A DNA stretch of 64,000 nt from Kineosporia sp. NBRC 101731 (GTDB taxonomy: Bacteria > Actinomycetota > Actinomycetes > Actinomycetales > Kineosporiaceae). The stretch is taken from contig NZ_BSTC01000004.1 of NCBI RefSeq assembly GCF_030269305.1, positions 1 to 64,000 of the forward strand. Reading direction: 5' to 3'. Of this stretch, positions 49,425-58,610 are shown one piece after another. The notes below the pieces were generated by a model. That model did no database searches. It was not told the origin of the DNA and was given only the letters and a program-made list of their open reading frames with translations. The position numbers and the translations under genes are program-made. The number at the start of each line of letters is the position of its first letter. The stretch's first letter is position 1.

Positions 49425-50711
49425 GTGCTCACGATCACCGGCGCCACCCGCATCCTCGTCGACCCGGCCACCGAGACGACCGGAGACCTGTCCGCCGTCG
49501 ACGGGCGGATCACCGATCAGGCCGTCACCGGTGGCGAGACCCTGGACGCGGCGGGTGCGGTGGTCACGCCCGGCCTGATCAATGCCCATCACCATCTGCT
49601 GCAGACCGCGTTCCGCACGCTGCCGGGCACCCGCGGGGTCCCGATGCGCGAATGGCTCGGCGTGATGGCGGCCGGGTACCGCGCGGCCGGGGTCACCCCG
49701 GAACTGACCGGGGCCGCCGCGTCCGTCGGGGTGGCCGAGGCGCTGCTGAGCGGCGTGACCACGATCGCCGACCATCACCTGACCTGGCCGGACGGGTGCG
49801 ACGACGTCGGGATGGCACAGGCCACGGCCACTGCTGCCCGGACTCTCGGCGCGCGGCTGGTGTTCGTGCGGGGCAGCGCCGGCGACGACCCGCAAGCGGC
49901 CGCCGATTCCGCCACCCGCATCGTCGAGGCCCTGCTGCCCGGGACGAGCACCGGAATCGGCGACGACGGGATGCTCCAGCTGGCGGTCGGGCCGGCCGGG
50001 GTGCACAGCGACCGGCGGGAGACCTTCGAGGCGTTCGCCGAGGTGGCGGCCCGGTTCGGACTGCGCCGCCGGACCCAGGCCAACGAGCAGGTCGACGTCG
50101 AGATCGCGGCGCAGCGGTACGGTCGCCGTCCGCTGGAACTGCTGGCGGAGTGGGGGTGGCTGGCGCCGGACGTGACCGTGGCCCACCTGTGTGACGTCAC
50201 CCCGGCCGAGATCGCGCGTCTGGCGCAGGCCGGCGTCACCGCCACGCACGCCCCTGGTTGTGACGTGCCGATGGGGTGGGGGATCGCCCCGGTCGCGGCG
50301 CTGCTGGAGGCCGGGATCCCGGTGGGTCTGGGCACGAGCGGCGGGGGCAGTAATGACGCCGGTCATCTGCTCGCGGACGCCCGCCTGGCGATGCAGGTCT
50401 CGGCCCTGGTGGGGCGGCAGCTGAGCGCCCGCGAGGTGCTGGCCTCCACCACGCACGGGTCGGCGGCCGGCCTGGCCCGCCCGGAGCTGGGGCACCTGCG
50501 GCCCGGTGCGGCGGCGGACCTGTGCGTCTGGGACGTGTCCGGGGTGGCGGACGCCGGGGTCGCCGACCCGGTGGCCGGGTTGTTGTGGGCCCGTCCGGGA
50601 CGACGCCCGCGGCACGTGGTGGTCGGTGGACGTGTGGTGGTGCGGGACTACCGGCTCGTCGGTACCGACGAGAGCGAGCTGGTCGGGCGGCTGGGTCAGG
50701 CGCTCTCCTGA
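49425..50711 (+). CDS. amidohydrolase-family protein with substituted metal ligands (8-oxoguanine-deaminase-like)
   Basis: A 428-aa protein, GTG start. GLINAHHHLLQTAFRTLPGT (HxH at 55-57), EALLSGVTTIADHH, VTVAHLCDVTP and the C-terminal DLCVWDVSG place it near 8-oxoguanine deaminase and hydroxyatrazine hydrolases. The third metal His (HTHLAE in relatives) reads RTQANE, and the catalytic Asp in G-V-D-G-S-A-S-N-D reads G-T-S-G-G-G-S-N-D. With these two changes normal zinc hydrolysis is doubtful, so it may bind a ligand, use another chemistry or be decaying. It overlaps the Nudix gene end by 16 bp. Confidence 0.75.
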   Translation: MLTITGATRILVDPATETTGDLSAVDGRITDQAVTGGETLDAAGAVVTPGLINAHHHLLQTAFRTLPGTRGVPMREWLGVMAAGYRAAGVTPELTGAAASVGVAEALLSGVTTIADHHLTWPDGCDDVGMAQATATAARTLGARLVFVRGSAGDDPQAAADSATRIVEALLPGTSTGIGDDGMLQLAVGPAGVHSDRRETFEAFAEVAARFGLRRRTQANEQVDVEIAAQRYGRRPLELLAEWGWLAPDVTVAHLCDVTPAEIARLAQAGVTATHAPGCDVPMGWGIAPVAALLEAGIPVGLGTSGGGSNDAGHLLADARLAMQVSALVGRQLSAREVLASTTHGSAAGLARPELGHLRPGAAADLCVWDVSGVADAGVADPVAGLLWARPGRRPRHVVVGGRVVVRDYRLVGTDESELVGRLGQALS

Positions 50712-51243: not shown

Positions 51244-51813
51244 TCAGCGGGCGCCCGGGTTCTCCTTCACGATGAACAGCCGGTAGACCTCGGGCCCGCC
51301 CGTGCTCCAGCGGTGCGGTGTTCCGCCGCTCAGGTACAGCGAGTCACCGGGGCCCAGCGGCTCGATCCCGTCGGGGCCCAGGTCGACGAGGACCTTCCCG
51401 TCCGTGACGTGGATGAACTCGTCCTCGGCGTGCTGGTAGAACTCGCCCGGGTCGGTGTTGTCGCCCTCGTACAGCATCGGCTGCAGGCGCCGGTTACCGG
51501 TGGTCAGCAGGCGGGCCCGGCCCAGGCCGTAGGAGCCGGCGGTGCCTTCGCCGGCCCGGTGGACGGCGCTGACCTGTACATTTCCCTGCCCGGCCAGCAG
51601 TTCCACCTGGCTGGTGCCCAGCGCCACGGTGATCCGGTCGAGCGAGGCCATGCTCGGGCTGGCCAGTCCCCGTTCCAGCTTGCTCAGGAACCCGTGGGTC
51701 AGCCCGGCCGCGTCGGCCAGCTGGATCAGGGTCAGACCGCGGGTGCGCCGGACCTGGCGGATCCTCCTCCCCAGGGCCCGGACCGGATCGCTAGTGTCTG
51801 CCGGATGACTGAC
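51244..51813 (-). CDS. XRE-cupin regulator without a standard start codon
   Basis: The reading frame encodes an intact HTH_3 (GRRIRQVRRTRGLTLIQLAD, LTHGFLSKLERGLASPSMAS) and a C-terminal cupin_2 domain (YQHAEDEFIHVTDGKVLVDL, LGPGDSLYLSGGTPHRW). Between the in-frame stop at 51835-51837 and Met at 51651, inside the HTH, no ATG, GTG or TTG exists. AGGGAGG at 51828-51822 lies 8 bp before a GTC codon (51813) that is best explained as a mutated GTG or a sequencing error. It probably regulates the divergent operon at 51973. Confidence 0.75.
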   Translation of the reverse strand, partial: VSHPADTSDPVRALGRRIRQVRRTRGLTLIQLADAAGLTHGFLSKLERGLASPSMASLDRITVALGTSQVELLAGQGNVQVSAVHRAGEGTAGSYGLGRARLLTTGNRRLQPMLYEGDNTDPGEFYQHAEDEFIHVTDGKVLVDLGPDGIEPLGPGDSLYLSGGTPHRWSTGGPEVYRLFIVKENPGAR

Positions 51814-51892: not shown

Positions 51893-51909
51893 TGTTCCTC
51901 ACAGGAACA
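51893..51909. promoter_or_regulatory. operator-like palindrome in front of the heterocycle operon
   Basis: TGTTCCT-CAC-AGGAACA: perfect 7-bp arms with a 3-bp centre, about 64 bp before GTG 51973 and 80 bp from the divergent XRE-cupin gene. The likely ligand is the XRE-cupin protein. Confidence 0.7.
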
Positions 51910-51972: not shown

Positions 51973-53199
51973 GTGCCGGCCCATCAGCCCCTTCCGCAGA
52001 GCCTCCGTCGGCTGATCGGCGCCACCCTGCCCGACGGGCGGGTCGTCGATGTCGAGATGGAGGACGACGTGGTCACCGCGGTCGTTCCGGCCACCCCCGG
52101 TGCGGTGGCGGCCGACGGCGAGCTCGACCTGACCGGCTACCTGTTGCTGACGGCCCCGGCCGAGCCGCACGCGCATCTGGACAAGGCGCTGTCGTGGGAC
52201 GAGATCTCGCCGCCGATGGGTGATCTCGGCCTGGCCATCGACTCCTGGCGGGCCCACAGCCGGGGTATGACGACCGAGGGCATCGCCGCCCGGGCCACCG
52301 CGGCGCTGCGGATGATGCTGCAGGCCGGCACCACGGCCGTGCGCACGCACGTCGACCTGCTGTCCGGGCCTCAGCCGCTGCGGGGCGTGCAGGCCCTGAC
52401 CGGTCTGCGCGAGGAGGTCCGGCACCTGATCGACCTCCAGATCGTGGCCCTGGCTGCCCCCGACACCCCGGACGCGACCGTCCACGCGGCCCTCGACCTG
52501 GGCGTCGACCTGATCGGTGGCGCCCCGCACCTGGCCCCCGACCCGGTGCGCGACCTGGACCGGCTGCTGACGATCGCGCAGGAGCGTGGCGTCGGGGCCG
52601 ACATCCATACCGACGAGAGCCTGCACGGCGAGCCGACTCTCACCCACTACGCGCAGACGGTGCGGGACTGGCCGGCCGACCGGGTCCGCTCCGCCGGGCA
52701 CTGTGTGCGGCAGGGCACCCAGAGCGCGGCCGACCTGGTCCCGGTGATCGAGGCCGTGCTCGCGGCCGGCATCGGTGTGATCAGCCTGCCGATCACCAAC
52801 CTCTATCTCCAGGGCTGGGAGCACCCGGCGAGCACCCCGCGGGGCCTGACCGCCCTGCGCGCCTTCCTCGACGCCGGTGTCCCGGTCGCGGGTGGCGCCG
52901 ACAACCTGCGTGACCCGTTCAACCCGGTCGGGCGCGGCGACGCCCTGGAGACCGCGTCGCTGCTGGTCACCGCCGGGCACCTGACCCTCGACGAGGCCTA
53001 CCAGGCGGTCTGCTCCAGTGCCCGCTCGGTGCTGGGTCTGCCCCCGGCCGGGGCCGAGCCCGGCCACATCGCCGACTTCCTGGCGGTGCAGGGCGCCAGC
53101 CTGGGCGAGGTGATCGCCGCGGCCCCGGCGCAGCGCCGGGTGATCCACCGCGGCGCGCTCGTCGCCCGTTCGTCCGTCGTCCACGATTCCGCATTCTGA
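51973..53199 (+). CDS. cytosine-deaminase-like amidohydrolase
   Basis: A 408-aa protein with GTG 51973 after CAGGAG. The pattern follows the CodA/AtzB group: PHAHLDKALSWDE (His66-x-His68), DIHTDESLHGEP (third His), RSAGHCV (His) and GGADNLRDPFNPVG (Asp). These are the metal ligands and catalytic Asp of CodA-type deaminases. It likely deaminates or hydrolyses a pyrimidine-, pterin- or creatinine-type ring. It heads the ABC transporter operon. Confidence 0.87.
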   Translation: MPAHQPLPQSLRRLIGATLPDGRVVDVEMEDDVVTAVVPATPGAVAADGELDLTGYLLLTAPAEPHAHLDKALSWDEISPPMGDLGLAIDSWRAHSRGMTTEGIAARATAALRMMLQAGTTAVRTHVDLLSGPQPLRGVQALTGLREEVRHLIDLQIVALAAPDTPDATVHAALDLGVDLIGGAPHLAPDPVRDLDRLLTIAQERGVGADIHTDESLHGEPTLTHYAQTVRDWPADRVRSAGHCVRQGTQSAADLVPVIEAVLAAGIGVISLPITNLYLQGWEHPASTPRGLTALRAFLDAGVPVAGGADNLRDPFNPVGRGDALETASLLVTAGHLTLDEAYQAVCSSARSVLGLPPAGAEPGHIADFLAVQGASLGEVIAAAPAQRRVIHRGALVARSSVVHDSAF

Positions 53200-53239
53200 A
53201 CCGTCAGCACCGTCAGCACCGTCAGCAAGGACAGCCATC

Positions 53240-53983
53240 ATGACCGTGGATACTTCCACCCTCCTCGACTTCCGGGACGTGTCCATGCGTTTCGGTGAGA
53301 CCGAGGCACTCACCGGCGTCGACCTGAGCGTCCGGCGGGGCGAGTTCGTCTCCGTGGTCGGGCCCTCCGGCTGCGGCAAGTCCACCCTGCTGCGTATCGC
53401 CTCGGGCCTGGAACAGGTCTCGGGCGGCACCGCGTCCGTGACCTCGCAACGCATCGGGTACGTCTTCCAGGACGCCACCCTGCTGGCCTGGCGATCGGTG
53501 CGGAGCAACGTCGAGCTGCTGGCCGAACTGCACCACGTGCCGAAGGCCGAGCGGGCGGCCCGGGCCACCGCCGCGATCGACCTGGTGGGCCTGAACGGGT
53601 TCGAGAAACACCTGCCCCGGCAGTTGTCCGGCGGTATGAGGATGCGGACCTCCCTGGCCCGTTCCCTCACCCTCGACCCCGAGCTGTTCCTGTTCGACGA
53701 GCCGTTCGGGGCCCTGGACGAGATCACCCGCGAGCGCCTGAACGACGAGCTGCTCAAGCTTTTCGTGCAGCAGAACTTCGCTGGGCTGTTCATCACCCAC
53801 TCGGTGGCCGAGGCCGTGTACCTGTCCACCCGGGTGCTGGTGATGTCGGGGCGCCCGGGCCGGATCGTGGGCTCCTTCGACGTGCCGTTCGACATGCCCC
53901 GGGATCCCGACATCCGGTTCACCCCCGAGTTCGCCGCCCTGGTGGGCCAGATCTCCCACGCCCTGCGGGAAGGACACCGATGA
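53240..53983 (+). CDS. ABC importer ATPase (SsuB/TauB-like)
   Basis: A 247-aa ATPase with Walker A GPSGCGKST, Q-loop YVFQDATLL, signature LSGGMRMRTSLARSL, Walker B LFLFDEPFGALD and switch His ITHSVAEA. The MRMR variant of the signature tail is typical of NitT/TauT-family ATPases. It forms the importer with the permease (4-bp overlap) and the lipoprotein that follow. Confidence 0.94.
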   Translation: MTVDTSTLLDFRDVSMRFGETEALTGVDLSVRRGEFVSVVGPSGCGKSTLLRIASGLEQVSGGTASVTSQRIGYVFQDATLLAWRSVRSNVELLAELHHVPKAERAARATAAIDLVGLNGFEKHLPRQLSGGMRMRTSLARSLTLDPELFLFDEPFGALDEITRERLNDELLKLFVQQNFAGLFITHSVAEAVYLSTRVLVMSGRPGRIVGSFDVPFDMPRDPDIRFTPEFAALVGQISHALREGHR

Positions 53984-54756
53984 AGCGCATTCCCTGGTGG
54001 CAGCCGAGCATCGTGTTCGGTCTGGTCGTCGCCTTCTGGTACGCGATCGCCGCGTGGTACGACAAGAGCAAGGAACTGGCGTTCGTCGTGCCCTACCCGC
54101 ACCTGGTGCTCCAGGAGGCGGTGACCGACGGCCAGTTCCGGCAGCAGCTGCTCGAGAACCTGTTCCAGACCATCGTCGTCACCGCGACCGGCCTGCTCAT
54201 CGCCACGGTGATCGGGATGGGCTGGGCGGTGCTGATGTCGCAGGCCCGGTGGCTGGAGCACTCGCTGTACCCGTACGCGGTGATCCTGCAGACCATCCCG
54301 ATCCTGGCGATCGTCCCCCTGATCGGCACCATCTTCGGCTACGAGTTCACCTCCCGGGTGATCGTGACGGTGATGATCGCGCTGTTCCCGATGGTCTCCA
54401 ACACCCTGTTCGGCCTGGCCTCGGTGGACCGCGCGCAGCGGGAACTGTTCCGGCTCAACGGTGCCGGCCGGTTCACCACCCTGACCAAGCTCCAGCTGCC
54501 GGCGGCGCTGCCGGCGATCTTCGTCGGGCTGCGCACCGCGGCCGGGCTGGCGGTCATCGGCGCGATCGTCGGTGACCAGTTCTTCCAGCGCGGCACCCCC
54601 GGCCTGGGCGTGCTGATCCAGGTGTCCAACTCGCGCCTCAACGGCCCGGGCACGTTCGCGGCCATCATCACCGCCTCGCTGCTGGGTGTCGTCGTCTTCC
54701 TGCTCTTCGGTCTGCTGGGCCGGCTGGTGACCGGCAAGTGGGCCGACCAGTCCTGA
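53980..54756 (+). CDS. ABC importer permease (NitT/TauT family)
   Basis: A 258-aa protein with six membrane helices. The EAA loop is VDRAQRELFRLNGAGRFTTLTKLQLPAALP, which docks the ATPase. The N-terminus IPWWQPSIVFGLVVAFWYAI is a first helix without signal cleavage. Confidence 0.93.
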   Translation: MKRIPWWQPSIVFGLVVAFWYAIAAWYDKSKELAFVVPYPHLVLQEAVTDGQFRQQLLENLFQTIVVTATGLLIATVIGMGWAVLMSQARWLEHSLYPYAVILQTIPILAIVPLIGTIFGYEFTSRVIVTVMIALFPMVSNTLFGLASVDRAQRELFRLNGAGRFTTLTKLQLPAALPAIFVGLRTAAGLAVIGAIVGDQFFQRGTPGLGVLIQVSNSRLNGPGTFAAIITASLLGVVVFLLFGLLGRLVTGKWADQS

Positions 54757-54803
54757 ACCCCGGAAAACCCCCGAAAACCCGAACTTTCGAAGGAAAACCA
54801 ACC

Positions 54804-55970
54804 ATGATGCGTCGTCCTCTGGCCACGGGCCTGTCCGTCGCCGCCGTGCTCGCCCTGGCCGCCTGCGGCGGTTCGTCGTCCTCGACCGTGAGCGCCGCCC
54901 CGGCCGCCGCCGGGTCGGTGGACCTCACCGCCGACTGCCCGGCCACCGTCGTACTCCAGACCGACTGGAACCCCGAGGCCGAGCACGGCCACCTGTACCA
55001 GCTGCTGGGCAAGGACTACACGGTGGACGCGGACAAGAAGTCGGTGTCCGGGCCGCTGATGTACCAGGGCAAGTCGACCGGGGTGAACGTCGAGATCCGC
55101 TCCGGCGGGCCGGCGATCGGGTACTCCACGGTGACCAGCCAGATGTACCAGGACAAGGACATCATGCTGGGCTACGTGAACACCGACGAGGCGGTGCGGA
55201 TGTCGAAGGACAACCCGATCACCGCGGTGTTCGCGCCGCTGGAGAAGAGCCCGCAGATGATCATGTGGGACCCGCAGACCTATCCCGGCGTCACCGACAT
55301 CGCCTCGCTGGGCCAGGCCCTGAAGAGCAGCGGCGGGGTGACGCGCTACTTCGGCGGCGCCGCCTACATGGAATACCTGATCAGCTCGGGCAAGCTCGAC
55401 AAGAGCGTCACCGACGGCACCTACGACGGCACTCCGGCCAAGTTCGCCGCGGCCAAGGGCAAGGACGCCCAGCAGGGCTTCGCCAGCGCCGAGCCGTACA
55501 TCTACCAGACCGAGGTGAAGGCCTGGGGCAAGGCCGTGAAGTACCAGCTGGTCCACGACGCCGGCTACCCGTTCTACTCCTCGGCGATGACGGTACGCAC
55601 CGGTGACCTGGAGAAGGACAGCCCCTGCCTGAAGAAGCTGGTGCCGGTGCTGCAGCAGGCCGAGGTCGACTACTTCGCCGACCCGGCGGCCACCAACGAG
55701 CTGGTGCTCGACCTGGTCACGCAGTTCAACAACGGCTGGGTGTACAGCCAGGGCGTGGCCGACTACTCGGTCAAGACGCTGCTGGCCGACGGGATCGTCA
55801 GCAACGGCGACAACGACTACGTGGGTGACTTCGACGCCGAGCGGATCCAGAAGATCATCGACATCGACACCCCGATCTTCACCGCGAGCAACACCGCCCC
55901 GAAAACGGGCCTGAAGGCCGCCGACCTGTTCACCAACGAGTTCCTCGACTCCTCGATCGGGCTCAAGTGA
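54804..55970 (+). CDS. ABC substrate-binding lipoprotein (NMT1/THI5-like)
   Basis: A 388-aa protein with a lipobox LALAACGG (Cys about 21) after AAGGA. The NMT1-like fold is suggested by VVLQTDWNPEAEHGHLYQLL, NVEIRSGGPAIGYS, KDIMLGYVNTDEAVR and ADLFTNEFLDSS at the C-terminus. NMT1/THI5-type proteins bind pyrimidines, thiamine precursors, riboflavin or similar rings. This supports a heterocyclic substrate for the operon. Confidence 0.88.
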   Translation: MMRRPLATGLSVAAVLALAACGGSSSSTVSAAPAAAGSVDLTADCPATVVLQTDWNPEAEHGHLYQLLGKDYTVDADKKSVSGPLMYQGKSTGVNVEIRSGGPAIGYSTVTSQMYQDKDIMLGYVNTDEAVRMSKDNPITAVFAPLEKSPQMIMWDPQTYPGVTDIASLGQALKSSGGVTRYFGGAAYMEYLISSGKLDKSVTDGTYDGTPAKFAAAKGKDAQQGFASAEPYIYQTEVKAWGKAVKYQLVHDAGYPFYSSAMTVRTGDLEKDSPCLKKLVPVLQQAEVDYFADPAATNELVLDLVTQFNNGWVYSQGVADYSVKTLLADGIVSNGDNDYVGDFDAERIQKIIDIDTPIFTASNTAPKTGLKAADLFTNEFLDSSIGLK

Positions 55971-57280
55971 GCGGCGTCGCTGCCCTCGCAGCAGAACTTC
56001 GCACCCTGCTCGGGCCGGAGAACGTCAGTGAGGACGCCGCTGCCCTGGATCGCGCGTCGGTGGACGGCGCGCGGTTGTCGCCGATCATCCTCGAGCAGCT
56101 GCCCCTGGGCCGGGCCGAGCTCGTGGCCTGGCCCACCAGCGCCGACCTGATCGCCGCGACGGTCGCGGCGGCCGTGCGGCACCAGGTCCCGATCACCCCC
56201 CGCGGCAAGGGCACCGGCAACTACGGCCAGGCCATCCCGATGTCCGGTGGCCTGGTGCTGGACACCACCCGGGCCCGCGCGATCGTCGAGTTCGGTGACG
56301 GCTACGTGGTGGTCGAGGCCGGCGTGCCGATGGCCCAGATCGAGCACGAGGCCAACGCCCGCGGCCAGCAGGTGCTGATGTATCCCTCGACCGCGAACTC
56401 CAGCATCGGGGGCTTCCTGTCGGGCGGCTCCGGCGGCACCGGATCGATCCGGCACGGCATGCTGCACCAGGACTTCGCGCTCGCGCTCGACGTGGTGCAC
56501 GCCCGCCCGGACGCGACCCTCGTGCACGTCGAGGGGGCCGAGGCCGAACCGTACATCCACAACTACGGCACGGCCGGGATCATCGCCCGGGCGAAGATCG
56601 CCCTGGAGCCGCTGCAGCCGTGGAAGGGGCTGTTCGCCAGCTTCGCCACCTTCGAGCAGGCCCTGAGCGTGATCCGGCCGTTCGCGCAGCTGGAGCCCAC
56701 CCCGCGGCTGGTCTCGGCCGACCCGGCGACCCTCGCCGGGGCCCTGCCGGCCGACGAGGGGATCCCGGCCGGGCGGGCCAGCCTGCGGGCCATCCTCGAC
56801 GCGGCCTCGCTGGAGGCCGCGATCGCGCTGGTCGAGCAGGCCGGGGGCCGGGTCGAGCTGATCCGCGAGGGCACGCAGGCCATGCTGAAGATGAGCCGGA
56901 TCTCCTACAACCACCCCATCGAGTGGCTGCAGAAGTCGTTTCCGGGCAAGTACTTCCACGTCGAGGTGGCCGGCGACGCGCTGGTCGACCGGATCGCCGA
57001 GGTGGAGCAGGTCTACCCCGGCGGCCTGCTGCACATCGAGGCGCAGAAGGGCCGCCCGATCGGCATGCTGACCGGGATCTACTCCAGTGCCCAGGAGGTG
57101 TACGAGGGGTTCGACCGGCTGACCGAGCTCGGGGTGGGCTTCCACAACTGCCATCAGTGGTTCGTGGACTACCAGCCCGAGCGCACGGCGGAACTGGCCC
57201 GCACCACCGACCCGCTCGGACTGCTCAATCCGGGAAAGCTGCAGCAGGAGCTCACCGTGCGCACCGGGCGGCAGGCATGA
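55967..57280 (+). CDS. FAD-binding oxidoreductase (PCMH/GlcD-type)
   Basis: A 437-aa protein, GTG start overlapping the lipoprotein stop. The PCMH FAD domain shows PITPRGKGTGNYGQAIPMSG, LDTTRARAIVEFGDGYVVVEAG, VLMYPSTANSSIGGFLSGGSGGTGSIRHG and YGTAGIIARAKIALEP. The C-terminal substrate lobe differs from glycolate and lactate oxidases and may be specific. Probably oxidises an alcohol, amine or hydroxy-acid intermediate of the heterocycle. Confidence 0.88.
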   Translation: MSGVAALAAELRTLLGPENVSEDAAALDRASVDGARLSPIILEQLPLGRAELVAWPTSADLIAATVAAAVRHQVPITPRGKGTGNYGQAIPMSGGLVLDTTRARAIVEFGDGYVVVEAGVPMAQIEHEANARGQQVLMYPSTANSSIGGFLSGGSGGTGSIRHGMLHQDFALALDVVHARPDATLVHVEGAEAEPYIHNYGTAGIIARAKIALEPLQPWKGLFASFATFEQALSVIRPFAQLEPTPRLVSADPATLAGALPADEGIPAGRASLRAILDAASLEAAIALVEQAGGRVELIREGTQAMLKMSRISYNHPIEWLQKSFPGKYFHVEVAGDALVDRIAEVEQVYPGGLLHIEAQKGRPIGMLTGIYSSAQEVYEGFDRLTELGVGFHNCHQWFVDYQPERTAELARTTDPLGLLNPGKLQQELTVRTGRQA

Positions 57281-58053
57281 GCGGCCGCTACCGACTCGCG
57301 GAGCTCTCCGGGCCCGCGGTCGCGACCGAGCTGACCGCCTCGTCCGTCATCGTGCTGCCGACCGGGGCGATCGAGCACCACGGCGCCCACCTGCCCCTGA
57401 TGACCGATGCCCTCATCGCCGAGAGCGTGGCGGAGGCGGCCGTGGTGGAAGGGCGCTCGCAGGGGCTGGACCTGTGGCTGCTGCCGACGCTCACCTACAC
57501 CAAGTCGGACGAGCACGCCTGGGCCCCCGGCACGATGTGGCTGTCGGCGGAGTCACTGTGGTCGACGCTGGTGGACCTGGGCCGGTCGATCGCCACGACA
57601 CCGGCGCGCACGGTCGTGTTCGTCAACGGTCACGGCGGGAACACCGCCTTGCTCGGGGTGGCGCTGCGGGAGCTGCGCCGTCAGTTCGGCCTGGCCACGT
57701 TCAGCATGCCGGCCGGGGTGCAGCGGGCCGGGCGGGGCATCGAGGGTGAGCCCGACGAGCTGGGCATGGGCATCCACGCCGGGTTCGGCGAGACCTCGCT
57801 GGTGATGCACCTGCGCCCGGACCTGGTCGACCTGGATCTGGCCGAGCGCAACGTGCCGGAGAAGATGGCCGCCCTGAAGTACGTCGGGTTCAACGGGTAC
57901 CCGGTCAGTTTCGGCTGGACCAGCGACGACTTCGGTTCGGGCGTGATCGGTGACCCGACGGGATCGACCGCGGCGGTCGGGGCGCAGCTGTTCGGGGAAT
58001 CGGTCCAGCGGGCCGTGGGGGCGCTGACCGAGATCGCCGGCTTCCGGCCGTGA
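57277..58053 (+). CDS. creatininase-family amidohydrolase
   Basis: A 258-aa protein, ATGA overlap with the previous gene. The metal site is visible in LPTGAIEHHGAHLPLMTDAL (E-x-H-x-x-H-x-P), TKSDEHAWAPGTMWL, VFVNGHGGN and HAGFGETSLV (Glu). Creatininase-type enzymes open cyclic amides such as creatinine or act on formamides and on modified peptides. Here ring opening of a lactam-like product is plausible. Confidence 0.9.
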   Translation: MSGRYRLAELSGPAVATELTASSVIVLPTGAIEHHGAHLPLMTDALIAESVAEAAVVEGRSQGLDLWLLPTLTYTKSDEHAWAPGTMWLSAESLWSTLVDLGRSIATTPARTVVFVNGHGGNTALLGVALRELRRQFGLATFSMPAGVQRAGRGIEGEPDELGMGIHAGFGETSLVMHLRPDLVDLDLAERNVPEKMAALKYVGFNGYPVSFGWTSDDFGSGVIGDPTGSTAAVGAQLFGESVQRAVGALTEIAGFRP

Positions 58054-58610
58054 GCATCGAGGGTGAGGCCTGGGAGCTGCTGTCGAGCTGGCTGCCGGTC
58101 AACGGTGACCCGCAGCGCCCGCGGATGCAGCTGGCGACCGTGACCGGGCAGGGGGTGCCCGACGTCCGTACCGTTCTGCTGAGTGAGTTCTCACCCGAGG
58201 GCTTCTGGTTCCACACCGACAGTCGTTCGCGCAAGGTCGCCGACCTGGCGGCCTCGCCCCAGGTGGCCCTGTTGCTGTTGTGGCCGGACTTCTCCCGTCA
58301 ACTCAGCGTGCAGGGCGTGGCGTCCCTGGCATCGGCGGACGAGATCGCGGCCGCCTTCGCCGCCCGCACCCCGTTCCTGCAGCAGGTGGCCTGGCAGAAC
58401 ACGGACGACCTGGCCCGGCTGCCCGACGACGAGCGGCGGGCCCGGTGGGCGGCCCACGTGGCCACCGACGAGCCGCCGGTCACCTGGACCGGCTACCTCG
58501 TGCGCCCGACCCGGCTGACGTTCTGGCGGACCCATGAGGGCACGGCCAGCCGCCGGACGGAATTCACCCGCTCGTCCTCGGGGTGGTCCCGGCAGTACCT
58601 GGCCGGATAG
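58050..58610 (+). CDS. pyridoxamine-5'-phosphate-oxidase-fold flavoprotein
   Basis: A 186-aa protein with a GTG start overlapping by 4 bp. It shows the FMN split-barrel pattern RMQLATVTGQGVPDVRTVLL, FWFHTDSRSRKVADLAASPQ, VALLLLWPDFSRQLSVQG and a C-terminal RLTFWRTHEG similar to PdxH-like proteins. It likely binds FMN and may reduce or oxidise an operon intermediate; true PdxH activity is not shown. It is the last gene of the seven-gene operon. Confidence 0.82.
   Translation: MSIEGEAWELLSSWLPVNGDPQRPRMQLATVTGQGVPDVRTVLLSEFSPEGFWFHTDSRSRKVADLAASPQVALLLLWPDFSRQLSVQGVASLASADEIAAAFAARTPFLQQVAWQNTDDLARLPDDERRARWAAHVATDEPPVTWTGYLVRPTRLTFWRTHEGTASRRTEFTRSSSGWSRQYLAG

Follow-up and report, generated by a model that had tools for sequence, protein, structure and literature searches.

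A cluster of seven co-directional genes that might import and degrade a nitrogen-containing ring compound, probably a pterin, was analysed in Kineosporia sp. NBRC 101731. The seven open reading frames (ORFs) occupy positions 51973-58610 (+ strand) of contig NZ_BSTC01000004.1, inside a stretch of 64 kb that is referred to here as the window; the source genome comprises 8.26 Mb across 88 contigs. Together with the adjoining features the locus is composed as follows:

49425-50711, + strand: COG0402-type amidohydrolase of the 8-oxoguanine-deaminase type, upstream of the operon proper (PRK08203, 258 bits; PDB matches)
51244-51804, - strand: divergent XRE-cupin regulator (Pfam HTH_31 and Cupin_2)
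51893-51909: candidate operator TGTTCCTCACAGGAACA, a perfect inverted repeat (TGTTCCT-CAC-AGGAACA)
51973-53199, + strand: CodA-like amidohydrolase, candidate pterin (2-aminopteridine) deaminase (Amidohydro_3, PF07969)
53240-53983, + strand: ATPase of an ABC importer (ABC_tran)
53980-54756, + strand: permease of the ABC importer (BPD_transp_1)
54804-55970, + strand: substrate-binding lipoprotein with a THI5/ThiY fold (no Pfam match; AlphaFold model)
55967-57280, + strand: PCMH-type FAD enzyme, a relative of 6V42 (FAD_binding_4)
57277-58053, + strand: creatininase-superfamily amidohydrolase, candidate ring-opening amidase (Creatininase, 6.8e-60)
58050-58610, + strand: PNPOx-fold flavoprotein, candidate flavin reductase or dehydrogenase (PNPOx_N and PNP_phzG_C)

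The gene calls agree with those of an earlier note on this DNA, in that seven ORFs lie on the plus strand and six of them, all but the lipoprotein, gave matches to the corresponding Pfam families. The 4-bp overlaps which the note described for the last four genes (binding protein/FAD enzyme, FAD enzyme/creatininase-family hydrolase, creatininase-family hydrolase/PNPOx-fold protein) are present, and one further overlap of this kind joins the ATPase and permease genes; the other two junctions have gaps of less than 50 bp. The amidohydrolase ORF begins with a GTG start at 51973 behind an AGGAG sequence, and an alternative longer frame from 51892 would cover the inverted repeat. The XRE-cupin regulator had likewise been noticed before. 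What had been called a clear operator is indeed a perfect repeat, and the pattern TGTTC-N5..9-GAACA was found upstream of the amidohydrolase gene in each of the three further Kineosporia loci and in none of 68 loci from elsewhere; as the site of the XRE-cupin protein, however, the repeat at 51893-51909 remains a candidate, albeit a plausible one.

When bacterial genomes were scanned for the binding protein, 157 relatives were confirmed, and the counts out of 80 loci given below refer to the best 80 of these 157. The stretches fetched around them were at most 21 kb long, some contigs were short and the six-gene sets were not always contiguous. Homologs of the amidohydrolase, ATPase, permease, binding protein, FAD enzyme and creatininase-family hydrolase were all present in 66/80 loci, belonging to 21 of 23 genus-level groups, and in 60 of the 64 loci longer than 15 kb. 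Absence of the cluster from every relative, which the earlier note had named as evidence that would speak against it, was therefore not observed. Counted singly, the ATPase occurred in 75, the permease in 76, the creatininase family in 71, the XRE-cupin regulator in 51 and the PNPOx-fold protein in 45 of the 80 loci. The nearest related locus found was that of K. mesophila, whose binding protein is 96% identical. In some loci (e.g. L114, L121, L125 and L128) the importer genes and the enzyme genes are separated. The extent originally given for the cluster was too small, since the 8-oxoguanine-deaminase-type gene at 49425-50711 recurs with it, at an identity of at least 55%, in 53/80 loci. Homologs of the NUDIX gene located between this gene and the regulator were found in only 2 of 100 loci searched, both from Kineosporia. 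A VanB-type reductase recurs in 59/80 loci; no homolog was found on the contig of the window, and the best homologs in the same genome (46-47% identical) lie on other contigs.

A sample of the phylum was also searched. The binding protein gave a match at E <= 0.001 in 23/396 genomes (the source genome counted), five of them short and weak. Counts from this sample refer to the 17 strong loci, leaving aside the weak loci L050-L052, two further weak ones and the source genome itself. All 17 possessed the ATPase and the permease, while the amidohydrolase and the creatininase family were each present in eight.

By sequence, the closest PDB relative of the FAD enzyme is 6V42 (phmmer 1.1e-41; runner-up 1.1e-12), with 28.4% identity over 429 columns. 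The same structure is the top Foldseek match of the AlphaFold model (pLDDT 89; 8.2e-33, TMq 0.83). Its PDB title reads 'Crystal structure of the flavin oxygenase with cofactor bound involved in folate catabolism'; a literature search for a paper on 6V42 found none. The flavin-loop motif RGxGTGNYGQ is shared by 6V42, 71/71 actinobacterial relatives and 8/9 proteobacterial ones, the Klebsiella enzyme having the variant RGSATGNYGQ. With a leading P (PRGxGTGNYGQ) the motif is present in 41/71, and the shorter form was picked afterwards. The sequence GNYGQ does not occur in any of the 11 other FAD_binding_4 proteins of the source genome, and in a phylogenetic tree a branch with a support of 93/91 parts the cluster enzymes and 6V42 from these 11 paralogs. 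As best relative by sequence and by fold, and with the common GTGNYGQ motif, 6V42 places the enzyme in its own family, that of putative flavin oxygenases for folate-derived pteridines.

Clusters with much closer relatives of 6V42 are found on plasmids of Proteobacteria. The FAD enzyme of a Rhizobium plasmid (L135) is 66% identical to 6V42 and that of an Agrobacterium plasmid (L140) 65%; among 187 matching plasmid records, 113 show 60-80% identity to 6V42. The gene order of L135 is creatininase family, LysR, binding protein, ATPase, permease, 'cytosine deaminase', FAD enzyme, FMN-reductase type and RidA, and that of L140 is the same. We compared ten proteobacterial loci carrying the FAD enzyme, using gene tables that for plasmids are incomplete. 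The creatininase family was present in 10/10, the amidohydrolase in 9/10 (not in L138) and a Rid gene in 9/10 (not in L142). The redox partners vary: an FMN-reductase type in L135, L139 and L140, a VanB type in L136 and L141, a Rieske protein with a ferredoxin in L133 and other iron oxygenases in L137 and L138. Thus 5/10 loci have a reductase of the FMN-reductase or VanB type where the operon has the PNPOx-fold protein. Since the operon matches a widespread cluster with a 6V42-related FAD enzyme, the set is not wholly unknown, in contrast to the earlier note, which did not recognise it as a named pathway and spoke of an unknown compound, although pterins were on its list. A literature search by family names for a named cluster found no paper.

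The enzymes of the operon belong to broad superfamilies, and the curated cut-offs of cytosine deaminase, creatininase, MftE, PdxH and GlcD were all missed. The first amidohydrolase is CodA-like by superfamily, as had been stated, but not a cytosine deaminase by the curated cut-off (178 vs 403 bits). The stretch VAFPQ, which in CodA carries the substrate glutamine (Q156), was found in 0/71 of its relatives. The metal-site motifs looked for in a pterin deaminase are present: HxHLDK and HxDE in 71/71, [GS]H[CA] in 70/71 and [AS]DN..D in 63/71, and we take these to be the sites of the metal ligands. Similarly, the designation of the hydrolase at 57277-58053 as creatininase-type holds for the superfamily, whereas the protein stays below the cut-offs of creatininase (84 vs 235 bits) and of MftE (138 vs 172 bits). 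A pathway for creatinine, hydantoin or cytosine, as the superfamily names would suggest, is exceedingly improbable given these scores and the missing CodA stretch, and was set aside.

Several published observations concern pterin deaminases. One study describes a pterin deaminase of Variovorax sp. F1, active on folic and pteroic acid, that was found through homology to Arad3529; the authors group it with predicted amidases for cytosine and creatine as near relatives (PMC9513972). The figure legend of a 2026 preprint lists pterin deaminase under PF07969 (PMC13081902), the Pfam family which the amidohydrolase of the window matches. The eight amidohydrolases aligned from the proteobacterial clusters are 29-32% identical to it. 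Fan et al. (2013) reportedly stated in their abstract that Arad3529 probably starts an undescribed pathway of pterin degradation. A further relative was seen on pADP-1 (L152:9935-11266), where an amidohydrolase 52% identical to the deaminase of the Comamonadaceae cluster adjoins a BMP-family importer, atzD, atzG and atzE.

The PNPOx-fold protein reached 98 bits against a PdxH cut-off of 180 bits, and identity with true PdxH was not supported. Because the redox partners differ among the proteobacterial loci, a flavin or electron-transfer part is suggested for the actinobacterial protein by analogy.

For the binding lipoprotein, no Pfam or NCBIfam match was found at E <= 0.001, and it is absent from the seven places of the source genome that match the Pfam NMT1 profile. 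The term 'NMT1/THI5-type' is therefore not a sequence-family result, and an NMT1 assignment from sequence was discarded; it does hold for the predicted fold. The best PDB matches of the AlphaFold model (pLDDT 88.8) are the N-formyl-aminopyrimidine (FAMP)-binding protein 3ix1 (1.5e-15, TMt 0.74), the thiamin-binding protein 4nmy and Thi5. Among the proteobacterial binding proteins, those of L135 and L136 match Pfam NMT1 and that of Nitratireductor (L133) does not. The modelled fold would fit a pyrimidine-containing ligand. It might also be read as pointing to another bicyclic or pyrimidine compound, such as a lumazine or flavin breakdown product (lumichrome), the pyrimidine of thiamin or a triazine-like ring. 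The neighbouring gene product (49425-50711) has a triazine hydrolase as its nearest PDB match, followed by 7ww2 (named 8-oxoguanine deaminase / hydroxydechloroatrazine ethylaminohydrolase), 3hpa and 2paj, and the related deaminase on pADP-1 points the same way. Such a substrate is nevertheless very unlikely in view of the folate-catabolism relative 6V42, and the fold match is common to binders of unrelated small molecules. The triazine hydrolase in question is TrzN, and the resemblance hints at a possible origin of triazine hydrolases.

Pterin is the ring part of folic acid, and its breakdown is known only in part from other bacteria. Because the FAD enzyme is akin to 6V42 and the amidohydrolase falls into the Pfam family of pterin deaminase, pterins are the leading candidates for the substrate: with moderate confidence we propose that the operon imports and degrades 2-amino-4-oxopteridines that are released from folates and related cofactors. 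The scheme of the earlier note, in which a nitrogen heterocycle is imported, deaminated and oxidised before its ring is opened, is of the right kind, and the narrowing to pterins is added here by inference. We infer the following order of steps, and with it each single reaction. The ABC importer would bring the pteridine into the cell, where the CodA-like amidohydrolase would take off the 2-amino group to give a lumazine. The PCMH-type FAD enzyme might then oxygenate or dehydrogenate the pyrazine part with the PNPOx-fold flavoprotein as possible redox partner, and the creatininase-family hydrolase would open the oxidised (lactam) ring. The XRE-cupin protein would control the operon, perhaps through the inverted repeat at 51893.

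A number of observations weigh against this proposal. The function of 6V42 is taken from its PDB title alone, and an identity of 28% between it and the FAD enzyme leaves room for a change of substrate. The same applies to the proteobacterial counterparts in general (amidohydrolase 29-32%, FAD enzyme 27-33%, creatininase family 30-40%, binding protein 23-35%): because they are only 23-40% identical, enough for such a change, another, purine-like substrate might be used in Kineosporia. The candidate assignment of the deaminase is based on published placement, and the 52% identical relative of the Comamonadaceae deaminase on pADP-1 lies beside triazine genes. The THI5 fold is also found in binders of taurine-type compounds and of nitrate, and is for that reason no proof of a pyrimidine ligand. 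Rid genes, present in 9/10 proteobacterial loci, were found in 0/80 actinobacterial ones (1/80, weak, with seven queries). Finally, the FAD enzyme occurs in only 1/17 loci of the phylum sample, so the importer is also found without this enzyme nearby.

The main alternative would be an oxidised or modified purine base of the 8-oxoguanine type, with the FAD enzyme and the creatininase-like hydrolase acting on it or on products of the urate/allantoin side. The 8-oxoguanine-deaminase-type neighbour and the flanking genes of the relatives are consistent with this. A uricase or an allantoinase was present in the fetched flanks of 26/80 loci (9 groups); including molybdenum subunits of the xanthine dehydrogenase (XDH) type the count was 27/80, and including XdhC-type genes 39/80 (11 groups), the last figure being raised over 26/80 by loci with XdhC only. 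Uricase, allantoinase and the XDH type occurred together in 12/80 loci (4 groups). In the 17 loci of the phylum sample, a phosphoribosyltransferase nearest to xanthine phosphoribosyltransferase was found in eight, an allantoate-amidohydrolase in four and an XDH-type molybdenum subunit in five. Any purine-type gene was seen in 10/17 of these loci against 2/40 stretches chosen arbitrarily in nine of these genomes, a contrast that is partly circular because the representatives were chosen for recurring in these loci. Of the representatives, that of allantoinase exceeds its curated cut-off (539.9 vs 357.85), but those of XDH (480.5 vs 780) and XdhC (95.6 vs 161.6) miss the xanthine-specific ones, and the neighbour itself is far below the cut-off of 8-oxoguanine deaminase (PRK08203, 258 vs 532 bits). 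An annotated uricase or allantoinase was found in 0/10 proteobacterial loci with the FAD enzyme, as far as their incomplete plasmid gene tables go; a ureidoglycolate lyase is present in L133, and genes of the PaoABC type in both L135 and L140. In the source genome the uricase lies on another contig, not beside the operon, and for the relatives' XDH type this genome offers only distant matches (30% at the best E-value). Since a purine substrate would also leave the relation to 6V42 unexplained, we regard it as rather unlikely.

Purine genes near an operon for pterins could have yet another meaning. After deamination, the pteridine might be oxidised at C6 and C7, the 6,7-dioxo pyrazine ring opened by the creatininase-family hydrolase and the product reclosed to xanthine-8-carboxylate and xanthine. 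In the relatives, both could then be consumed by way of the nearby XDH-type, uricase and allantoinase genes. Taken as a whole this route is doubtful and must be called unlikely. In the 1960s a ring contraction was reportedly described in Alcaligenes (tetrahydroxypteridine cycloisomerase, EC 5.5.1.3). The excerpts consulted of the literature on the xanthine-8-carboxylate route, PMC5270733 included, gave no description of a bacterial pathway.

Some further features of the neighbourhoods deserve mention. A methylenetetrahydrofolate-reductase-like gene (L059:16595-17659 and relatives) lies near the operon in 27/80 loci and may point to one-carbon units or folates. Four of the 17 phylum-sample loci (L034, L038, L042 and L049) have a gamma-glutamyltranspeptidase-family gene, which, by kinship, might encode an oxamate amidohydrolase. 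In Agreia, a second binding-protein gene and a second creatininase-family gene are accompanied by an 8-oxoguanine-deaminase-like gene (L111:208-4988 and L117:183-4900), L111 additionally carrying an isochorismatase-domain gene and a cupin gene. Two Kineosporia loci (L054:1872-5300 and L055:3233-5148) possess an extra importer immediately 5' of the 8-oxoguanine-type deaminase; its binding protein in L055 matches Pfam NMT1, and the window has an ORF on the opposite strand at that place. In Herbiconiux and Agreia there are copies of the binding protein without the ATPase and permease of the operon; next to them lies a creatininase-family gene in L080 and L082, an XRE gene in L081 and a FAD enzyme in L091.

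According to PMC9513972, the mineralisation of folates and pterins in soil is not fully understood past the initial steps of hydrolysis and deamination. Because the operon is conserved in Actinobacteria and has an importer, a regulator and enzymes of its own, the rest of a pterin pathway becomes testable gene by gene. If the conversion of pteridines to purines outlined above were true, it would give genes to the ring-contraction step of the 1960s, an old orphan reaction, and would join the breakdown of vitamin B9 to that of purines.

Among known systems, the Rut pyrimidine pathway also relies on flavin chemistry and includes both a flavoprotein of the split-barrel kind and a Rid protein. The Pfam matches of the operon, however, include neither a luciferase-type RutA nor an isochorismatase-type RutB, and the Rid protein of the Comamonadaceae cluster is below the RutC cut-off. 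The islands of purine catabolism (XDH, uricase, allantoinase) lie near the operon in some relatives but not beside it in the window. Arad3529 and the Variovorax sp. F1 pterin deaminase resemble the amidohydrolase of the window by their published placement near cytosine deaminases. Downstream of the Variovorax gene there is a conserved 'endoribonuclease' gene that served as primer site for amplification (PMC9513972). Rid genes likewise occur in 9/10 proteobacterial clusters, and the one of the Comamonadaceae cluster bears the Pfam name 'Endoribonuclease L-PSP'. The Rhizobium-type cluster around relatives of 6V42, attributed to folate or pterin catabolism, shares with the Kineosporia operon the ABC importer with a THI5-fold/NMT1 binding protein, the CodA-like amidohydrolase, the PCMH FAD enzyme with GTGNYGQ, the creatininase-family hydrolase and a flavin or electron-transfer partner. 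The Kineosporia operon differs in having a PNPOx-fold protein in place of the FMN reductase and in being practically without Rid, and it is extended by the 8-oxoguanine-deaminase-type gene, by XRE-cupin control and, near some of its relatives, by the genes of purine breakdown.

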